A stretch of DNA of 64,000 nt from a virus. Numbering within the stretch: the stretch's first letter is position 1; every line of letters starts with the position of its first letter. The notes under the pieces were generated by a model. The model was not told where the DNA came from. It saw only the letters and a list, made by a program, of their open reading frames with translations, and did no database searches. The DNA lies in IMG/VR virus record IMGVR_UViG_3300032241_001154, positions 1 through 64,000 of that record. One strand, 5' to 3'. Both the position numbers and the translations under genes were made by a program. Positions 2,194-63,998 of this stretch are shown here, one piece after another.

Positions 2194-3351
2194 TTAGTCT
2201 AGTGGGGTTTCCAAAGTTGGGTGGTCTATCTGGGGTTTAGTGGAATCCCCAATAAACTCGTGTGAGTAGGACATCCGTCGGCTGGGTTGCCAGCCAGAGA
2301 AACGCTCTACTCGCTGGTTTTCAGCAACGCTGTCTTTGCGCTTGACGTGGTTCTTGGAAGTCGGCTTCCAAAGCGCAGAACCGTCTCGGTATTGGCCTAG
2401 TCGGGGGTGTGTGGTCTTGGTGAAAAAACGTCGCTCCATCAACGTCTGATTCGCACCTTGCCAGTCACTAAATCTTACACCCACTCCTAAACCTTGAAAG
2501 TCTGGCTTGACAACGAGGCGATGGCCTCGGTATGCGTTTTTCACTGTTCCACTTGGAAAAGAGAGAACTGCGTAGAAGGCGGCTGGGATTCCACCAATGA
2601 CGGCGACATAGCACTCGGACGAACCGTTGAGTGAGCCATTGAGGTAGTGGTGTTCCACGAAATACTGCCACATGGCTGCTTCGACTTCGTATACCTCTGC
2701 CACCAAAGGTTCTCGATGAAGGCACTCCTTGGGCTGAAGGCAGTACATCCCTGCGTCGGTGTCAATAATCCAATCGGGCTGTAGCCATTCCAGCACGTCA
2801 CGATGGCAGGTTGCGATGACGATGTTATGTACGGCGTTTGTACGGACGTACTTTTGGAACGTGTTGCTGGCGGCCTTGGCGACGGTGCGGTCTACGACTG
2901 AGGTGAACTCGTCAATGACGGCGTTGGCGGCAATCTGACGAGCCAAGTCCGCTCGGAACTTTTCACCAGTACTCAAAACGTTGTACGGCTTCGTCCACGT
3001 CGGCACGGCGTTCAATCCGACGGCGTACATCAACGCTGCGCCTTGCTCTGCGGTGGTGAAGTGTGAGATGACTGAACGTGTGTTGTCCCACTGCGGCTGT
3101 GCCATTTCACCAAACTCGGTTAGCAGTAACGTCTTGCCACTGCCAGAAGCGCCCACGATTACGCCGATGTTCCAATCCTCACCTACGTTGGGCTTGGCCC
3201 ACGGGTAGAACGCTGTGCTGGTTGGGTCGTACTCGAACTGCTCGCACGCCTCGGTGGTGATGGGGTCTGATTCCAAATCAGATGTCAGCGGTGTGTTGGA
3301 CTTTCCCAACGGCAACCACTCATCCGTGGTGGTGAAAAGCATTTCGTTCAT
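2194..3351 (-). CDS. ABC-type ATPase fused to a GNAT-like domain
   Basis: The 385-residue protein joins two modules. The N-terminal half is an ABC-like P-loop ATPase: Walker A GASGSGKT near residue 67, signature LSTGEKFR near 127, Walker B AVIDEF near 144 and a switch-like ATCH near 180. There are no membrane segments, so it is not a transporter. The C-terminal half (about 225-345) has the GNAT acyl-CoA loop pattern, HRLVVKPDFQGLGVG, followed by a T.HP.L...R element. ATPase-GNAT proteins of this type occur in phages and mobile elements, and the GNAT part is reminiscent of Mom-like DNA-modification enzymes; that link is inference. The GGGGGAG ribosome site supports the ATG at 3351. Confidence 0.75.
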   Translation of the reverse strand: MNEMLFTTTDEWLPLGKSNTPLTSDLESDPITTEACEQFEYDPTSTAFYPWAKPNVGEDWNIGVIVGASGSGKTLLLTEFGEMAQPQWDNTRSVISHFTTAEQGAALMYAVGLNAVPTWTKPYNVLSTGEKFRADLARQIAANAVIDEFTSVVDRTVAKAASNTFQKYVRTNAVHNIVIATCHRDVLEWLQPDWIIDTDAGMYCLQPKECLHREPLVAEVYEVEAAMWQYFVEHHYLNGSLNGSSECYVAVIGGIPAAFYAVLSFPSGTVKNAYRGHRLVVKPDFQGLGVGVRFSDWQGANQTLMERRFFTKTTHPRLGQYRDGSALWKPTSKNHVKRKDSVAENQRVERFSGWQPSRRMSYSHEFIGDSTKPQIDHPTLETPLD

Positions 3352-3448: not shown

Positions 3449-3826
3449 CTAGTCTAGCGGTGCAGATACCTCGGTGACGGTCATTTCCAATGCGTCCTTG
3501 CCAAACAACGGGGCAAGGAAGGTGAGTTTCACCACAATCTTGGCGTTGTCGTCAATCAACACGCCTGCATCAACCAGCCCGTCAACGGCTGCTTTCACCT
3601 GAGGGAAGCACGCACCCACGTCTTGGCGGTACTTGGCGTTGAGGACGTAGGGCTGGATGGTGATTTCCACCTGCTCCATGCTCGGCATCATCGCCTCTTT
3701 TGCGAGGTCACAGAATGCTGCTCGCCACTCCTTGACAATCTTGGCTCGCACCATGTGGTGAACCGTGCGCTCTTTGTTGAGCGTGAAGTCGGGACGTTCC
3801 TCGTAGGTGAGGACGTAAGCGTTCAT
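3449..3826 (-). CDS. RusA-like Holliday junction resolvase
   Basis: This 125-residue protein matches the general plan of RusA-type endonucleases, which cut branched DNA at junctions before packaging or during repair. The C-terminal half shows the family pattern: conserved D in YRQDVGAC, then K...DGLVDAGVLIDD, then a beta-strand-rich tail. The acidic pair in the IDDN segment corresponds to the metal-binding residues in the family. The start is placed at ATG 3826 because the upstream extension of the frame overlaps a clearly real gene. The ATG overlaps the stop of the HslV-like gene (ATGA), so the two are probably translated together. Confidence 0.65.
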   Translation of the reverse strand: MNAYVLTYEERPDFTLNKERTVHHMVRAKIVKEWRAAFCDLAKEAMMPSMEQVEITIQPYVLNAKYRQDVGACFPQVKAAVDGLVDAGVLIDDNAKIVVKLTFLAPLFGKDALEMTVTEVSAPLD

Positions 3827-4311
3827 AGTGAAATAACCACGACGGGTGGGCGTGCGTTGGTTGTGTGTGTGACTGCGGCGTTCACTGCTGTCTCCACTCG
3901 TTCCTTGCCCGTGAGTTCCTTGCTGCGTTCCAAAGCGTACAGTGCGGCGAGGGCGGCCTGAGCGCCAGCACCTGTGGCCCCGTATGGCTCTCGTGATTTC
4001 ACCACGGCAAAGTCCGAGCCAATCTCGTAAATGGCGGTCTTGTTGGCGACAAGGACGGCCCAATCGTCTGCTGGAAACCCTGCGTCGTTCGCCCGTGCCA
4101 TGAGGTAGTCACGGATTTTGTACGGGTCAGAAACGGCGCTCTTTCGGAGAATGTCCATAATCCGAAACGAACCCGATACGCCGACAAGACTTGATTCGGT
4201 GGCCCAAACTTTTGGCTCTGCTGAAATGATGACCGTGGAATCGTCAAATGCGCCGCTGTCCCCAGCCATCCACACTTGCTTTTTGTCTTTCCACGCTGCC
4301 AAACAGGTCAC
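3823..4311 (-). CDS. HslV/proteasome-beta-like Ntn peptidase
   Basis: This 162-residue protein looks like a threonine-dependent N-terminal-nucleophile hydrolase of the HslV/proteasome beta family. After removal of the initiator residue, Thr1, Asp17 (in AGDSG) and Lys33 (in EPKVW) fall at the catalytic positions known for HslV. A GxSG-type strand (VGVSGSFR) and the helix-rich element GATGAGAQAALAALYAL also match the family layout. No partner unfoldase of ClpX/HslU type is visible, so the substrate is unknown; it may use host proteins. The start is GTG 4311, and no alternative in-frame start exists before a stop. The gene overlaps the RusA-like gene by four bases. Confidence 0.8.
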   Translation of the reverse strand: MTCLAAWKDKKQVWMAGDSGAFDDSTVIISAEPKVWATESSLVGVSGSFRIMDILRKSAVSDPYKIRDYLMARANDAGFPADDWAVLVANKTAIYEIGSDFAVVKSREPYGATGAGAQAALAALYALERSKELTGKERVETAVNAAVTHTTNARPPVVVISL

Positions 4312-4333
4312 AAGACAAGGCTACTAGCGGATT

Positions 4334-4729
4334 TCACTGCCCCTGAGTTGGGTAATGAACCTCGCCCGTTTGTGCGTATTCCGTGCGCATCTGGTCGGTC
4401 ATCGCCTTTGCTCGCACCATCTGTGCCGCCGTTTCTGCACGCTGCTGATTCACCTTGACACGGGCATCAAGTTCGTCCGCTTTGCTGCCGCCGTTGGCCT
4501 TTTCCAAATCTCTGGCGGCGGTGAAGTGCTTGACTGCCTCTTCGTGGAGTTCCTTGGCCTGCTGCCAGCGCCCGTTATGGAAACGGTACACGCCCATGCG
4601 CTCGGCCTTTTCACCTGCGTTGACGTGTTCGGCTACCCCCTTGGAGTATTGGTTGCCGTGGAAGATGTGACCGAGTAGGTCGCCCTTTGTGAGCGGATAC
4701 AACAACCCGTCGGTGGTGAAATCAGTCAT
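4334..4729 (-). CDS. GHxFxGNQ-motif protein (131 aa)
   Basis: The protein has a short N-terminal segment ending in KGDLLGHIFHGNQY (motif at residues 20-27), followed by a long, charged, alanine-rich helical region to the C-terminus (AxxLxxA-type heptads, residues 35-115). The same motif opens three proteins at 58.3-59.7 kb and occurs twice in the right-edge protein, yet this copy lies 54 kb away among replication-side genes. Function is unknown; a role as a packaged or virion-associated protein is inferred from the motif's company near the head genes. The ATG has a weak ribosome site and lies 9 bases after the preceding stop. Confidence 0.7.
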   Translation of the reverse strand: MTDFTTDGLLYPLTKGDLLGHIFHGNQYSKGVAEHVNAGEKAERMGVYRFHNGRWQQAKELHEEAVKHFTAARDLEKANGGSKADELDARVKVNQQRAETAAQMVRAKAMTDQMRTEYAQTGEVHYPTQGQ

Positions 4730-4738
4730 GCCACAAGG

Positions 4739-4930
4739 CTAACCGACGTTTTCTAGATGCCTCTTGACTTCCGTTTCGGCTTGTACTTTCTTGAAGAACC
4801 GTGGAAGGCTCCATCCGCAGTTGCACCACGCTTCGTACAGTGTGGTGTTCAGCATCGAAGAACGGTATTCCTCGACCTGAGCGTCGTGGTCTTTAGGCGC
4901 TTCTGGTGCGGCCTTCTTCTTGGCTGCCAC
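4739..4930 (-). CDS. Hypothetical protein, 63 aa
   Basis: A small protein with a Lys/Ala/Pro-rich N-terminus (VAAKKKAAPEAP) and a tail containing the paired-cysteine element WCNCGW. I place the start at GTG 4930, which overlaps the stop of the upstream gene (TAGTG), rather than at the ATG at 5011, which would overlap that gene by about 80 bases. Function is not recognisable. Position within a tight leftward operon suggests an accessory role. Confidence 0.55.
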   Translation of the reverse strand: MAAKKKAAPEAPKDHDAQVEEYRSSMLNTTLYEAWCNCGWSLPRFFKKVQAETEVKRHLENVG

Positions 4931-5408: not shown

Positions 5409-5951
5409 CTAGGCAACGCCCATCAAGAGTTGCAAGTTGGTTGGTGAAACCATGTACACGTCGGGCACGTCGAAGTACACGCCAGCAAAACGCATGGCCT
5501 CGTGCGCCAATGCCGAGCAAATCCACGTTCCTTCACGACGGCATTCCAAGAACCACTGTGGTGAAATGATGTCCACGCCGATGCAGATGTCGGACAACAA
5601 CCCGTACTTCTTTCCAATCTGCTTCTCGGCAAACCACGCCGCCTTCTCAGCGTCTCCGCCAAACGAGGTGATGTCGTAAATCGAGATGATTTCGGACGAG
5701 GCGATGAGGCTGGCAAGGGTTGATTTCACCACGCCCTTCATGGTCGCTTGCACAATCCACACGTCGTCGTAGGTTGCGCCTTCGGTAACGACGGTAAAGC
5801 AGTGGTTGTAGGTGCCGTCCTTCAAGCGCAACTTTTCACCGAAGCGGATGAGTGCGCCCATGGTGCCGTCGGTCTTGGCAAAGCCAGTCATGCCTCGCTT
5901 GATTTCACCAGCGGGCAGGTTCGTGATGCATGGGGCGGCGTTCTTTGACAC
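5409..5951 (-). CDS. YiiX-like permuted papain-fold amidase/peptidase
   Basis: This 180-residue protein fits the circularly permuted NlpC/P60 (YiiX/YaeF) cysteine-peptidase layout. The catalytic His comes first (His50 in YNHCFTVV) and the Cys comes late (Cys145 in WICSALAHEAM), with a G..YG element between (residues 113-117). Family members cleave amide bonds in cell-wall peptides or lipoproteins. No signal peptide is seen, so it could act inside the cell, be released by the holin or be part of the virion. The start is GTG 5951. It lies 12 bases after the HNH gene in the same operon. Confidence 0.65.
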   Translation of the reverse strand: MSKNAAPCITNLPAGEIKRGMTGFAKTDGTMGALIRFGEKLRLKDGTYNHCFTVVTEGATYDDVWIVQATMKGVVKSTLASLIASSEIISIYDITSFGGDAEKAAWFAEKQIGKKYGLLSDICIGVDIISPQWFLECRREGTWICSALAHEAMRFAGVYFDVPDVYMVSPTNLQLLMGVA

Positions 5952-8684: not shown

Positions 8685-9599
8685 CTACTCAGGAACTACG
8701 TCCTCGGTTGGCTCGTCCTCTTCGATGGTTGAGCACGAGGCGACCAACTCTTGGGCTTCCGACAGGCGGGCCTGCGTCAGGCTGTTCACCTTGGGCAGTC
8801 CGGCCTCGCCCCACGCCTTGGCGAGCGCACGACGCTGGGCTGGGGTCAGGGTGCGAATGCGTCCGTCGAGAACGTCACGCTCCGTGTCGGTGATGATGGG
8901 GTCACCCGACTTCAACCAAGTGTTGAAAATCTGAGCCGCTTCGGTTCCCTTGTTCGGGGCGAACACCTTGTCTGCGAGAGCCTCGCAACGTGTCTTGCCG
9001 ATGATGGTGCGGTGGTCAGTGTCCATGTCCACGACGAGGGTGAACTCGTACTCGATGCCGTCACGCTGAATGGGAGCCATGCCGACCTTGCGTGGAGCGG
9101 TGCGACCATTGTCGCCCTTCTCCAACGTGTACTCCGTCTTGGAGCGCATCGTGCTGATGATGTGACCGTTGAAGTTGAGCAACGTGTCAACCATGCGCTG
9201 CTGAATCGGCGTGCCGGTTTTCCATCCGGCAAATCCGTTGCCGCCAGCCTTCGAACCAGCCAAGTCCACAATCTCCAACAGGCCACCTGCGCCGTTGTAG
9301 AAGTGGGTGAGGCTGTCAATCACAACGACTGCGTAGCCTTCGCCCTCGGCAGCCTTCAGCACTTCGACCAAGCGGTCAGGGTGGTAGGGGGCGGACATTG
9401 ACAACGTGTCGAAGTCGAATCGGTCTGCGTACAACTTGGCGCTGTCACGCTCCGTATCAATCACGGCAATCTTCCCACCGGCGGCAAGTTCCGTCGCCCA
9501 CGCAAGTGCGCTGAACGTCTTACCCGAACCCGATGGGCCTGTCACTGCAATGCGAGCCTTGGCCTCAGCCTTAGTCGCCTTTGTAAATAATGAACTCAC
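8685..9599 (-). CDS. Sak4/RecA-like single-strand annealing ATPase
   Basis: This 304-residue protein is a RecA-fold P-loop ATPase of the phage Sak4 type, which promotes strand annealing or exchange with an SSB in phage recombination. Walker A is GPSGSGKT (residues 21-28), Walker B is AVVVIDS near 93, and a MRSKTEY segment with a conserved downstream KVGMAP..RDG.EYEF block is typical of the family. The C-terminal third has a helical segment (LTPAQRRALAKAWGEAGLP) like those that bind partner proteins or DNA. GTG 9599 is supported by GAAAGGTG. It is divergent from the rightward operon that includes a Gam-like protein, making a recombination cluster. Confidence 0.85.
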   Translation of the reverse strand: MSSLFTKATKAEAKARIAVTGPSGSGKTFSALAWATELAAGGKIAVIDTERDSAKLYADRFDFDTLSMSAPYHPDRLVEVLKAAEGEGYAVVVIDSLTHFYNGAGGLLEIVDLAGSKAGGNGFAGWKTGTPIQQRMVDTLLNFNGHIISTMRSKTEYTLEKGDNGRTAPRKVGMAPIQRDGIEYEFTLVVDMDTDHRTIIGKTRCEALADKVFAPNKGTEAAQIFNTWLKSGDPIITDTERDVLDGRIRTLTPAQRRALAKAWGEAGLPKVNSLTQARLSEAQELVASCSTIEEDEPTEDVVPE

Positions 9600-58274: not shown

Positions 58275-58754
58275 TTATTCGGCGTGAGTGTTGGCAAGCA
58301 TGCCAGTGGCGGTATCAGCATTGAAGGAAGCGATTGCCGCCCTCTGAGCCAAAGCCTGCGCCTCAGGGTCTTTCTCGTATGACGCTTGTCCGCCCAATGG
58401 GGCGATGTGGTCGAGAATGGCCTCGTGAGCCTGCGCTGCATCGAGGTGGGCCTGAATCGCACGGGTCGCACGCATGCGGTCACCGTTAGACATTTCACTG
58501 CTGTGCTTCAGAACCATGTTCTTGATTCCTTCGGCGGTTGAGCGGTGAATCTGGGCGAGGGGCTTGGTCAGGCCATTGGAGATGCCAATGCCACGAGCGA
58601 AGTTCTGGGCGTTGGTGGAAAGGAAGTGCGAACTGCTCACGGCCTTTTCCATGTCTGCGCCCGACTGCCACTGGTTGCCGTGGAACGGGTGCCCTGCTAC
58701 ATCACCCTTAGCCAACTGTACCCACGCAATGATTTCGTTGTTCAGATTATCCAT
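58275..58754 (-). CDS. GHxFxGNQ-motif protein (159 aa)
   Basis: The N-terminal segment ends with AKGDVAGHPFHGNQW (motif at residues 21-28). The remaining 130 residues are helical and Ala-rich (RATRAIQAHLDAAQAHEAI, DPEAQALAQRAAI). Function is unknown. It is the third of three adjacent proteins with the same N-terminal motif but unrelated bodies. The start overlaps the stop of the preceding gene (TAATG). Confidence 0.7.
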   Translation of the reverse strand: MDNLNNEIIAWVQLAKGDVAGHPFHGNQWQSGADMEKAVSSSHFLSTNAQNFARGIGISNGLTKPLAQIHRSTAEGIKNMVLKHSSEMSNGDRMRATRAIQAHLDAAQAHEAILDHIAPLGGQASYEKDPEAQALAQRAAIASFNADTATGMLANTHAE

Positions 58755-59290
58755 TAGATACCTTCCGAGAAACTTCCAACGCCAGCGGCTTGCTCGGCGC
58801 TACGGACGTTGTTTTCAGCAGCATCAACCTTATCTTGTGCGTCACTCATACGTTGTCCCGTGGCGTGGGCTGGGTCGGCGTTGGTGATTGTGTCACGGTT
58901 CGCCTCAAAGTTCTTGGTGTCACGGGCTGCACTTGCCAAACCAGCGTGGGCGTTGGCTGCGCTTTCGTGGGCGGTGGCAACATCACGGAGTTTTCCAGCC
59001 ATTGAGCCAGTCGCCTTGTCTGCCATTGCGTGATACATCTGGGCTTGCTGATTGTGCGAAGCGCTTTGCTGCGTTGAGGTGGCTTCAGCGTTGCGACCTG
59101 CGTTCATTATGTCGTTTGCACCCCAGCGGCTTGGGTCTACACGACGGGCTGGTTGTGCTGAAGCGCCAGTCGAGATGCCGCCAGTGTGCTGGTTCCCATT
59201 GAAGGCGTGACCGTCGGTCTCGTACTTCAAGATTTCACTGGCGGTTTTCCAAACTGGAACCAGTGCGTCGGTGGAGAAAGGGTTTGACAT
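58754..59290 (-). CDS. GHxFxGNQ-motif protein (178 aa)
   Basis: The motif GHAFNGNQH lies at residues 27-35, preceded by EILKYETD and followed by GGISTG. The body is very helical and rich in A, N, Q and S (QQSASHNQQAQMYHAMADKA, AENNVRSAEQAAG), with heptad character, suggesting a long coiled structure. No ribosome site is evident; an A-rich stretch precedes the ATG, so translation may be coupled or rely on an AT-rich leader. A short Gly/Ser/Thr-rich spacer follows the motif. Confidence 0.7.
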   Translation of the reverse strand: MSNPFSTDALVPVWKTASEILKYETDGHAFNGNQHTGGISTGASAQPARRVDPSRWGANDIMNAGRNAEATSTQQSASHNQQAQMYHAMADKATGSMAGKLRDVATAHESAANAHAGLASAARDTKNFEANRDTITNADPAHATGQRMSDAQDKVDAAENNVRSAEQAAGVGSFSEGI

Positions 59291-59300
59291 TATGTTTTTT

Positions 59301-59714
59301 TTACTTTGGCAGGTCAGCGTTGCCGGAGTGATTTATTGCAGCAAGCGTCTGGACTACTGCCTTAGAAGCGTCTCCAACTACGTTCCTATTGCCGTAATCC
59401 GCAGCCTTAGTCCACGTCTTTTCAGCAGCAAGGTGTGCTTTGGCGAGGGCGTTCAGGTTGTCTGCAACGTCCTTGTAGCCAGTTTCGTTTCGTGCTGCCA
59501 TTGCTTTGGCTGCTTCACCACGGTGGTACTCCGCCATGCCTAAAGCGTCTGCACGGTTTGGGGCACCGCCAATGCGGGCACTAGCAATCTTGCCCGCTCG
59601 CATAGCAATGGTGTATTGGTTGCCGTTGAAGATGTGTCCAGCCAACTCGTACTTTGTGACGGGGTAGCGAGAAAGTGATTTGAGTAGTTCGTCGGGGTGG
59701 AAGCCAGATGACAC
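59301..59714 (-). CDS. GHxFxGNQ-motif protein (137 aa)
   Basis: It starts at GTG 59714 behind AAGGAG. The motif (TKYELAGHIFNGNQY, residues 26-34) is followed by a helical Ala-rich domain (HRGEAAKAMAARNETGYKDVADNLNALAKAHLAAEKTW). The tail has an amphipathic helix (KAVVQTLAAINHSG). It is the first gene of the trio. Nothing in the body suggests an enzyme. Confidence 0.7.
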   Translation of the reverse strand: MSSGFHPDELLKSLSRYPVTKYELAGHIFNGNQYTIAMRAGKIASARIGGAPNRADALGMAEYHRGEAAKAMAARNETGYKDVADNLNALAKAHLAAEKTWTKAADYGNRNVVGDASKAVVQTLAAINHSGNADLPK

Positions 59715-59896: not shown

Positions 59897-60394
59897 TTAT
59901 TGGGGCCTGTTTGCGCCCCAAAGTGAGGTGAAATGGCCTCGTTCTGCTTCGCCAATGTGCTCCAAGAGCAGGTATCCATCGAGATGGTCTGTCTCGTGCT
60001 GAAAGATGCGAGCGAGCAATCCTTCCCCGTCAATCCTGTAGGCGTTCCCGTCAAGGTCGAGGGCCGTCAAGGTCGCTTTGTACGAGCGGCTGATTTGCCA
60101 CCCGAACTTGGGCACCGACAAGCATCCTTCGGGCGTGACCTCGATGTCAAGGGGGTCAGTGAAAACCTCTGGGTTGATGGCGACGTGAGCGCCCGTGCCG
60201 TCGCCGCTGTCCCAAACGAACATGCGGTGCGAGTAGCCGATTTGGTTGGCGGCAAGCCCAACACCGAGGTGAAAGTACATGGCCTCAACCATTTCGGCGG
60301 CAATCATCTTGATGTTGTCTGTGATTTCACTGACTGGGGTCGTGGGGGCTTCCAAAATGGGGTCGCCGTAGAAGCGCATGGCTGGGATGTTCAC
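59897..60394 (-). CDS. def: Peptide deformylase
   Basis: This 166-residue enzyme removes formyl groups from nascent protein N-termini. All three signature motifs are present: GVGLAANQIG (motif I), EGCLSV (motif II with the metal-binding Cys) and HETDHLDG (motif III, HExxD-H with both metal His). The start is GTG 60394, overlapping the preceding stop (GTGA); the ATG at 60379 (MRFYGDP) is an alternative that fits the usual family start. Phage deformylases are known in marine and soil phages, where they may sustain fast translation in the infected cell. Confidence 0.92.
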   Translation of the reverse strand: MNIPAMRFYGDPILEAPTTPVSEITDNIKMIAAEMVEAMYFHLGVGLAANQIGYSHRMFVWDSGDGTGAHVAINPEVFTDPLDIEVTPEGCLSVPKFGWQISRSYKATLTALDLDGNAYRIDGEGLLARIFQHETDHLDGYLLLEHIGEAERGHFTSLWGANRPQ

Positions 60395-60657
60395 CGTGCG
60401 CCCATCTCTCTCTTTGCCTCTTCGAGCAGTTCGGCGGTGAAGTCCTCTGGCGACAGTTCGGTCTTGGCGTGGGCCATCAACTTGCCGCAGGCGATGCTGA
60501 ACGCCCATGTGTAAAGGCTGAGTTCCTCGTCGAGGTGCGACAACTCCTTGCGGTAGCCGAGAACCATCTGGTCGTGCTTGGCAATCAGCCCTGCCATCCC
60601 AGTGCGCATGGTAGCCAACTTCTCTTCGAGGTCGGCAATCTGCTTTGACTTACGCAC
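60391..60657 (-). CDS. Coiled-coil protein, 88 aa
   Basis: A helical protein with strong heptads at the N-terminus (QIADLEEKLATMRTGMAGLIAKHDQMV) and Leu/Glu-rich helices to the C-terminus (AELLEEAKREMGAR). It has a possible zinc or redox cysteine only once, so no metal site. GTG 60657 follows AGAGAAG. It overlaps both neighbours by a few bases as part of a coupled chain. Function is unknown. Confidence 0.6.
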   Translation of the reverse strand: MRKSKQIADLEEKLATMRTGMAGLIAKHDQMVLGYRKELSHLDEELSLYTWAFSIACGKLMAHAKTELSPEDFTAELLEEAKREMGAR

Positions 60658-61945: not shown

Positions 61946-62243
61946 GTAAGAAAGCAGCAGTGCCGAGGTGCGCTTGTAAAGTCCCCACGAGAAAGTGGTC
62001 GAGCAAGCCGAAGGCCAGCCTGTGAGCCGTACCACCTGTTTGCGACACGGGCGCACTCAGTAAGGCCGTAGGAAGTTCGGAGCGAACTACGGCGAAGGTG
62101 GGTACGGAAGTTGGGAGCGGAAGTGGTACCCCTAGGAAACGGGAAATCCACAAAGTAGCCCAGCGCAGATGCAGTACCCCAGTAAGGAAAACCAAGGCTA
62201 CCGAGTTAGAAGTCCCCTCAGCAAAGGCTGGGGGGATTTTCTA
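61946..62243 (+). ncRNA. Putative structured non-coding RNA, about 298 nt
   Basis: The region lies between promoter P4 and an intrinsic terminator, on the strand opposite its neighbours. By-eye pairings: GCTTG (61972-61976) with CAAGC (62004-62008), enclosing CCAC/GTGG; GAGGTGCGC (61965-61973) with GCGCACTC (62051-62058, one bulge); CCGTACCACC (62027-62036) with GGTGGGTACGG (62097-62107, one bulge); GCCGTAG (62065-62071) with CTACGGC (62087-62093), with inner TTCG/CGAA. The second and third cross, so a pseudoknot is implied. It does not show the RNase P, tmRNA or 6S hallmarks I know. Short frames on both strands overlap it, but none has a ribosome site or known relatives. Confidence 0.7.
62213..62240 (+). 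terminator. Intrinsic terminator of the structured RNA
   Basis: TCCCCTCAGC (62213-62222) pairs with GCTGGGGGGA (62227-62236) around AAAG, with one G-U pair, followed by TTTT. It ends exactly at the stop of the convergent right-edge gene. Confidence 0.8.
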
Positions 62244-63998
62244 TTGCTGGGCGACGCTATACGGAATGTTGTTTTTGACGAGCGAATCAACCGTCGTCTT
62301 GTTTGGGGGTGTGTCAAACTCGACCCGTGCGATGTCTCCCAAGGTGATTCCGCCGTGAATCTGGGCCTCGACGTAGGGCGCACGTCCCGTGTTGTTGATA
62401 GTTGCGTCTGCCGATAGCCCGTGCTTCAGCATGTCAACGATGCTGTGTTCGCCTGCTGGCTTGACCGCTTCTGCCTCAGGGTCACGAGCCGACATGGGCT
62501 TGGTAGTCCATGGGTTGCCGCCCCTCTGACCGAAGGTGCCTCGGCTGTCGCCCATGGTGACCGTAGAGCGGTCTTTCACGCCGTCCTTCAGCACGACCTT
62601 GGCACCGCCGTAATAGGTGGGGTCGTCCTTTGAGCCTGCGTGGTCAATGTAGCCGTAGATGGGACGCTCGGATGGTGACGCACCTTCCAATCCGAAGAGT
62701 TTGTTTTCGACTTGGGTTCGATGATTGTTCGGGTCGGAGATTTCACCACCGTGCATGGTGGCAGACGAGCCAGTTTGGTGGGCATTCTTGATGGAGCCGC
62801 TTGACAAGACTTGCTTCAGAGCAGATGGTTGCATGCGGACGGCTATTTCACCTGACGCTACAAAGTTTTTGATGGCCCTTGCCGATGCTTGCTGATACTC
62901 GGCGTGGCTTCCAGTCCATTGGTTGCCGTTGAATGGGTGTCCTGCCGCCTCGCCTTTGTAGACCTCGTTCAGCACTTGATAGTGGATTTGGCTTGCCTTG
63001 TCGTCGTCGCCTGCCTCGTGCGCCTCTTGCTCTTGGGCGAGCAGTTTGACCGCCTTGTCGCTGAGGTGTTCCCCTTTGGGCTTCTTAGCCTTCTGTAGGG
63101 GGCGTAGGGCGAACCGTGCCCAGATGTCGCCAGCGGCCTTACCAATCGGCTTGGCGGCGACCCCATTGTCCTTTGACCATTGCAACGCTCGGCTAATCAC
63201 CTCGGTGGCAGGAGCGTCCACACGGATAATTGGCAACATCTGCGAGGGGTGCTGGAAGTGGATAGCCACGTCCGCAGCCCAGTTGTGGTGACCGTCAATG
63301 ACGTAGTTGTCCTTGGAGACAAGAAGGAACTTGCTCTGGGGGATTTGCCCGTCAGCCTCTTTGTAGAGTTGGGCAGCACGCCCAAGCCCGATTTCCTTCT
63401 GCGAAGGCTTCAGGGTCGTGGGGTCTACAAACTCTTTGGTTGAGGTGATACCGCTCTTGGCAAGGTCGGAGACAAACTGGTCACGCATTTTGCTGGGCAC
63501 TTGGGGCATTTCGCTACGGGAGTAGCCAAGTCCGTCCTGCCCCATTAGGCGTGTTCCGTCTACTCGGAGTTCGGTGATGTCTGCCGTGGCGACTTTTGGA
63601 TTGTCAATCTTGTTCGCCTTGTCCAACAGAACGCCAAGTTCGCTGGACGAGATGACGGGCTTTTCACCTGCTGCCAGTGAGTTGATGACGCTCTTTGACC
63701 ATTTCTTGGGGTTCTCCGAGGACGAGTATCCGCCCGTCCACTGATTTCCCTCAAAGGCGTGCCCTTGCTCTGCGCCAGAACCTTGTCCGCCCTTCACCAC
63801 TTGGCTACTTCCGCTCGCCTGAAGCAGGGCGTTGGCGTAGTCCTTGGCTTCAGCGTCGGTGCAAGTAGCAATGCCTTGGAAACGACCAATAAGTTCGGGG
63901 GTTGCTGGAACAACGTCCCAATACTTCACAATGGCAAAAGAACTCTTTAGAAAGTTGTCTTTTAGTTCCTGAAGGGTTTGTTCGCCGTTTCCGTCCAC
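62241..63998 (-). CDS. Modular protein with ParB-like and toxin-like domains (5' end may lie beyond the window)
   Basis: At least 585 residues are encoded; the frame runs from near the right edge (GTG 63998) and may extend beyond it. Modules in order: an N-terminal helical part; the motif GHAFEGNQW at residues 79-87; a ParB-like domain with the sulfiredoxin/ParB signature VIDGHHNWAA near 233-242; a second motif GHPFNGNQW at 353-361; and a C-terminal domain (385-585) with R...TS....R...E..FG....RPIYGY..YGGAKVVLKDGV.DRSTVTMGDS. That pattern resembles a toxin-like domain (DUF3626 or ADP-ribosyltransferase-type) often fused to phage head morphogenesis proteins. It probably acts as an injected or head-packaged effector; this is inferred. 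Confidence 0.7.
   Translation of the reverse strand: MDGNGEQTLQELKDNFLKSSFAIVKYWDVVPATPELIGRFQGIATCTDAEAKDYANALLQASGSSQVVKGGQGSGAEQGHAFEGNQWTGGYSSSENPKKWSKSVINSLAAGEKPVISSSELGVLLDKANKIDNPKVATADITELRVDGTRLMGQDGLGYSRSEMPQVPSKMRDQFVSDLAKSGITSTKEFVDPTTLKPSQKEIGLGRAAQLYKEADGQIPQSKFLLVSKDNYVIDGHHNWAADVAIHFQHPSQMLPIIRVDAPATEVISRALQWSKDNGVAAKPIGKAAGDIWARFALRPLQKAKKPKGEHLSDKAVKLLAQEQEAHEAGDDDKASQIHYQVLNEVYKGEAAGHPFNGNQWTGSHAEYQQASARAIKNFVASGEIAVRMQPSALKQVLSSGSIKNAHQTGSSATMHGGEISDPNNHRTQVENKLFGLEGASPSERPIYGYIDHAGSKDDPTYYGGAKVVLKDGVKDRSTVTMGDSRGTFGQRGGNPWTTKPMSARDPEAEAVKPAGEHSIVDMLKHGLSADATINNTGRAPYVEAQIHGGITLGDIARVEFDTPPNKTTVDSLVKNNIPYSVAQQ

Follow-up and report, generated by a model that had tools for sequence, protein, structure and literature searches.

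Phage-encoded proteasome homologs are, to our knowledge, without known function. Members of three such groups, PPH, AAH, and CPH, have been described in phages (Fuchs, Alva and Lupas 2021; PMC8665760). That survey saw no AAA+ partner for the beta-proteobacterial proteasome homolog (BPH) and the other new proteasome homologs, and its authors stated that they could find no AAH-bearing phage specific to actinobacteria. Likewise, a Salmonella jumbo phage has been reported to encode HslV without HslU (PMC7823757).

The stretch of DNA analyzed here (the window) comprises 64,000 nucleotides of a 64,191-base virus contig in IMG/VR. An open reading frame of 162 amino acids with a GTG start occupies positions 3823 to 4311 on the minus strand, exactly where the initial annotation had placed a peptidase gene. 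PHROG 1040 ("peptidase HslV family") matched its product over residues 6 to 161 (E value, 8.9e-15) and also matched its relatives; it is the existing phage family of the window peptidase, which is a divergent member. The peptidase was not detected by Pfam, including PF00227, and its homology rests on PHROG, profile, and structural comparisons. From these and from the active-site residues, we consider it almost certain that the protein is a proteasome/HslV-type threonine Ntn hydrolase of the proteasome fold, and it falls on the group I side of the superfamily (HslV/BPH/AAH). Without the initiator, the N terminus reads TCLAAWKDKKQVWMAGD..., and the protein has Thr1, Asp17, Lys33, and the oxyanion Gly46 in place (residues are numbered from the Thr next to the initiator Met). 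No clear Shine-Dalgarno sequence was seen before the peptidase GTG. A possible leaderless-type promoter, consisting of a -10-like TAGCCT, 6 nt, and then the GTG start, lies at 4312 to 4323 (minus strand). The motif TAG(C/G)CTTG precedes the peptidase start in most close relatives and also precedes the gene at 4729. The sequence TAGCCTTG stands directly before both start codons (4312 to 4323 and 4729 to 4741, minus strand), neither of which has a clear ribosome site, and may, at a guess, be the -10 element of leaderless transcripts.

The predicted fold agrees with this assignment. An earlier AlphaFold2 run with 14 close sequences gave a pLDDT of only 58, and a confident model (pLDDT, 94.2; pTM, 0.89) was obtained only from an alignment of 32 sequences. 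In this model, two helix pairs (helices 48 to 57, 62 to 71, 116 to 127, and 134 to 148) flank the strand core. Foldseek comparison with the PDB placed HslV (E value, 2.4e-13) and BPH (1.3e-12) first and 20S beta subunits next, with top TM scores of 0.79 to 0.82 for HslV and 0.80 to 0.86 for BPH (5ovt, 5ovs, and 5ovu), while sequence identity to HslV and the 20S beta subunits was about 16 to 24%. The core strands had been proposed to match those of HslV, as the confident model and the leading Foldseek hits now confirm, and the Ntn fold, whose absence had been named beforehand as grounds for abandoning the assignment, was found by both methods.

Despite this similarity in fold, the peptidase differs in several respects from the described groups. 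It shares the fold and Thr1/Asp17/Lys33/Gly with HslV (ClpQ), but no HslU was found in 13 phage records, which may be incomplete, and Ser124 is not kept. The NCBIfam HslV models scored it at 20.6 bits against a cutoff of 137 and at 19.3 bits against a cutoff of 157.75. The initial description as HslV/proteasome-like therefore holds for the type of Ntn peptidase but not for HslV proper, as the protein falls below the curated cutoffs and on a separate branch. BPH has the same fold (TM, 0.80 to 0.86) but is a bacterial gene with 16 to 19% identity. AAH (PMC8665760) resembles the window peptidase in several ways: both belong to group I, begin with Met-Thr, carry Thr1, Asp17, and Lys33, show no AAA+ partner, and occur in phages. 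However, identity to the AAH-like set is about 29%, the window peptidase is shorter by about 20 residues ahead of its second half, and the signature after Lys33 is GxAGSFR in its clade compared with GFTSSFRMGQ in the AAH-like set. Furthermore, the carriers of the clade are probable actinophages, a group in which AAH was not found by the 2021 survey. PPH, which possibly corresponds to the "peptidase HslV family" genes of T5-like and jumbo phages, is likewise phage encoded, small, and without an unfoldase. PPH proteins have about 140 residues and lack helix H2, whereas the window peptidase has 162 residues and, in the predicted model, both helix pairs; it was therefore not assigned to PPH.

Relatives with 34 to 99% identity were recovered from viral contigs in four scans, the last of which retained the best 80 of 95 confirmed contigs. 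A tblastn search of phage isolates with the window peptidase gave no match at an E value of 0.01, and with other family members as queries relatives were found in Geobacillus, Moorella, Escherichia, Salmonella, Vibrio, and other phages. Plasmid-borne relatives have 27 to 35% identity. Two scans of cellular genome contigs with one or two conserved motifs found no relative, which, given their motif-based design, does not show that cells lack them. The nearest profile was that of the AAH-like set (E value, 5.4e-29), made up by taxonomy of sequences from Rhizobium, Sinorhizobium, Mesorhizobium, Streptomyces, Bacillus, and Geobacillus phage E3; the T5/jumbo-like set was farther away (7.4e-22). The branch separating the peptidase clade from the AAH-like set was long (2.09) and fully supported (100/100), in a midpoint-rooted tree with long branches from which the clade's group of origin cannot be read. 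The HslV rows fell among freshwater rows at an unresolved place; both were partial and copied by hand, and that of T. maritima contains at least one copying difference, which leaves the conclusion unaffected. The clade is thus a divergent new branch of already known phage proteasome homologs; what is new is the branch itself and its fixed coupling to a RusA-like gene in probable actinophages. The searched literature on freshwater actinophages contained no mention of a proteasome or protease. An unnamed protein of Gordonia phage Daredevil (BFVD A0A345MIR8) was predicted to have the same fold (TM, 0.80; 19% identity), and this structural match indicates that an actinophage isolate with the peptidase's fold already exists.

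T1, D17, K33, and G46 were each invariant in 54/54 distinct full-length proteins, and when the family profile was aligned to a structurally known HslV (E value, 2.7e-9; BPH was matched in the same search at 5.7e-6), all four fell on their HslV counterparts, so that the intact Thr1-Asp17-Lys33 triad of the initial annotation stands. The oxyanion Gly is at position 46 in this family, compared with Gly47 in the criterion for the proteasome-like superfamily. All 54 proteins begin with Met-Thr, with Thr directly after the start codon and no propeptide, which would not be expected by chance; this start is consistent with a Thr1 that would become exposed. All but one of the 54 have His at position 148. 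The window peptidase gene differs from that of contig L001 by 12 synonymous changes and 1 nonsynonymous change, dN/dS was roughly 0.04 to 0.13 in other nonsaturated pairs, and it was also well below 1 in more distant, partly saturated pairs. The peptidase is therefore under purifying selection, and the invariant residues together with the low dN/dS place the active site itself under selection.

In contrast to the triad, the shuttle position (114 in this family) corresponding to HslV Ser124 and proteasome Ser129 is non-Ser in 49/54 proteins (Ala in 42, Gly in 4, and Gln in 3, with Ser in 5), and the window peptidase itself has Ala. According to a proposal for the 20S core, Ser129 acts with Asp166 to protonate the Thr1 amine and is required for efficient proteolysis (PMC4792962). 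Because this serine is mostly replaced, catalytic activity appears likely from the conserved residues but is not assured, and the previous statement that the enzyme should be active goes beyond what the triad alone supports.

Immediately downstream, at 3449 to 3826 on the minus strand, lies a gene for a RusA-like Holliday junction resolvase of 125 aa (PHROG 34; E value, 1e-13). Its start overlaps the peptidase stop codon by 4 bp (ATGA), confirming the overlap with a resolvase gene noted earlier, and this junction is consistent with translational coupling of the two genes. Other neighbors include HTH, endonuclease VII-like, replication initiation, and Sak4-like genes. Contigs of the lineage were collected through the AAA_24 gene alone, independently of the peptidase. 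Among the 26 contigs with an AAA_24 identity of at least 57%, 17 carried the peptidase with RusA directly adjoining; 8 of the remaining 9 end too near the AAA_24 gene to hold the peptidase, and 1 (L152) is ambiguous. The pair was hence present in 17/17 clearly long-enough contigs, which makes the peptidase gene a core component of this phage lineage's replication/recombination block and not of its head module. It was found in 0/53 more distant AAA_24 relatives, many of which have short flanks. The fixed place beside RusA suggests that the peptidase would act while phage DNA is replicated and recombined.

Actinobacterial hosts are probable but not proven. The whiB gene has been treated as an actinophage marker (PMC10202952, PMC6802176), and WhiB was encoded in 12 of 24 carrier contigs compared with 1 of 14 control genomes (Corynebacterium), which points to such hosts. 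Among the WhiB carriers is G001, a contig of 85 kb that encodes a peptidase with 99% identity; the window's own record does not encode WhiB. Furthermore, the capsid protein (328 aa) matched isolate capsid proteins over its full length, the closest being those of Arthrobacter phages (52%). The TE metagenome 3300000439, a contributor of relatives, presumably represents the Trout Bog epilimnion. It belongs to a humic-lake study (PMC6344600), and this one contributing metagenome suggests, in part, a freshwater habitat for the lineage.

The lack of a visible unfoldase partner, noted initially, was borne out by domain searches, as no AAA+ unfoldase was found in the window record (PF07724 and PF00004). 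Across 13 phage records, which may be incomplete, AAA_2 (PF07724, HslU type) had no match and PF00004 gave only weak matches below the cutoff. In the window, the weak PF00004 match is the AAA_24 gene at 8685 to 9599 (minus strand), which was rejected as an unfoldase because it is RecA/Sak4-like (PF13479, E value, 2.9e-24; PHROG 124). As the records may be fragments, a phage partner outside the listed genes is possible.

The best overall explanation, to which we give about an even chance, is a self-contained, unfoldase-free intracellular threonine peptidase. Host methionine aminopeptidase would remove Met and expose Thr1, and the subunits would assemble into a ring chamber like that of HslV or BPH. 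As is presumed for uncapped 20S or BPH, the phage peptidase might cut unstructured, nascent, or chaperone-released proteins, in this case during the replication/recombination stage of infection; this substrate class is less certain than the unfoldase-free mechanism. Most likely, the peptidase would serve to degrade some host or phage protein that interferes with the replication or recombination of phage DNA. The fuller proposal, that a freshwater actinophage lineage keeps a fixed, RusA-coupled, unfoldase-free peptidase dedicated to removing one particular protein of host or phage during replication and working without the Ser129 shuttle, is a good deal more tentative, and we consider it rather unlikely.

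A host unfoldase could instead be the partner, with the phage bringing only the peptidase and an actinobacterial AAA+ protein (for example, of the Mpa/ARC or Clp type) feeding it chosen proteins, such as defense proteins. The absence of an unfoldase from the phage records would fit, as would the fact that HslV, the closest characterized relative by sequence, works with one. However, a genomic link to any ATPase is absent, no AAA+ partner is seen for BPH or the other newly described homologs (PMC8665760), and the peptidase is so distant from HslV that one would not expect an HslU-type interface to have persisted; we regard this arrangement as doubtful. Less likely still is a connectase-like selective amidase or protein ligase acting on one specific target protein. 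As connectase shows, a small proteasome homolog may act as a monomeric ligase of high specificity (PMC8665760), and the shuttle serine is mostly lost in the family, but the model, which goes from E26-28 to E34-36, lacks the two-helix insertion that connectase carries between strands 3 and 4, and both helix pairs are present. Processing of virion (head) proteins during assembly, suggested initially, is not favored and appears improbable. Peptidase_S78 prohead protease was not found in 11 carrier records, leaving no other obvious assembly protease, but the peptidase lies beside RusA in every long-enough relative, away from the capsid genes at 53.7 to 56.3 kb, and the 328-aa capsid protein seems to have no obvious cleavable N-terminal scaffold extension. 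Hardly credible is the idea of a catalytically dead decoy subunit that would enter the host proteasome or HslV and block it. In its favor there is only the general consideration that homologous subunits might coassemble, but the core catalytic residues are invariant (54/54) under purifying selection, and identity of about 16 to 24% makes coassembly with host subunits unlikely.

The branch adds a case of a proteasome homolog in probable actinophages, whose gene keeps its place next to RusA throughout the lineage. The conserved neighbor, the defined active site, and the mostly missing shuttle serine make function testable, and the last raises the question of whether the Thr1-Asp17-Lys33 core alone suffices.

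Several other genes in the window, all on the minus strand, were also of note. A second hydrolase, a permuted papain-like amidase (5409 to 5951; PF05708, C92, just above the cutoff), lies 1.1 kb upstream of the peptidase, and its family occurs in 24/54 related loci. The gene at 2194 to 3351 encodes an ABC-type ATPase fused to a region resembling GNAT acetyltransferase; the protein belongs to PHROG 11143, is common to many unrelated phages, and has about 40% identity to proteins in Aeromonas and other phages. A phage peptide deformylase (PHROG 2890) is encoded at 59897 to 60508, and in Vibrio phage henriette a deformylase gene is likewise located near an HslV-like gene; one may speculate that the phage deformylase helps expose the N-terminal Thr. 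Finally, a short motif, GH(x)F(x)GNQ, recurs in the genes at 4334 to 4729, 58275 to 58754, 58754 to 59290, 59301 to 59714, and 62241 to 63998: it lies near the N terminus or in the interior of several small proteins that otherwise differ and is found twice in the large protein at the end of the record.
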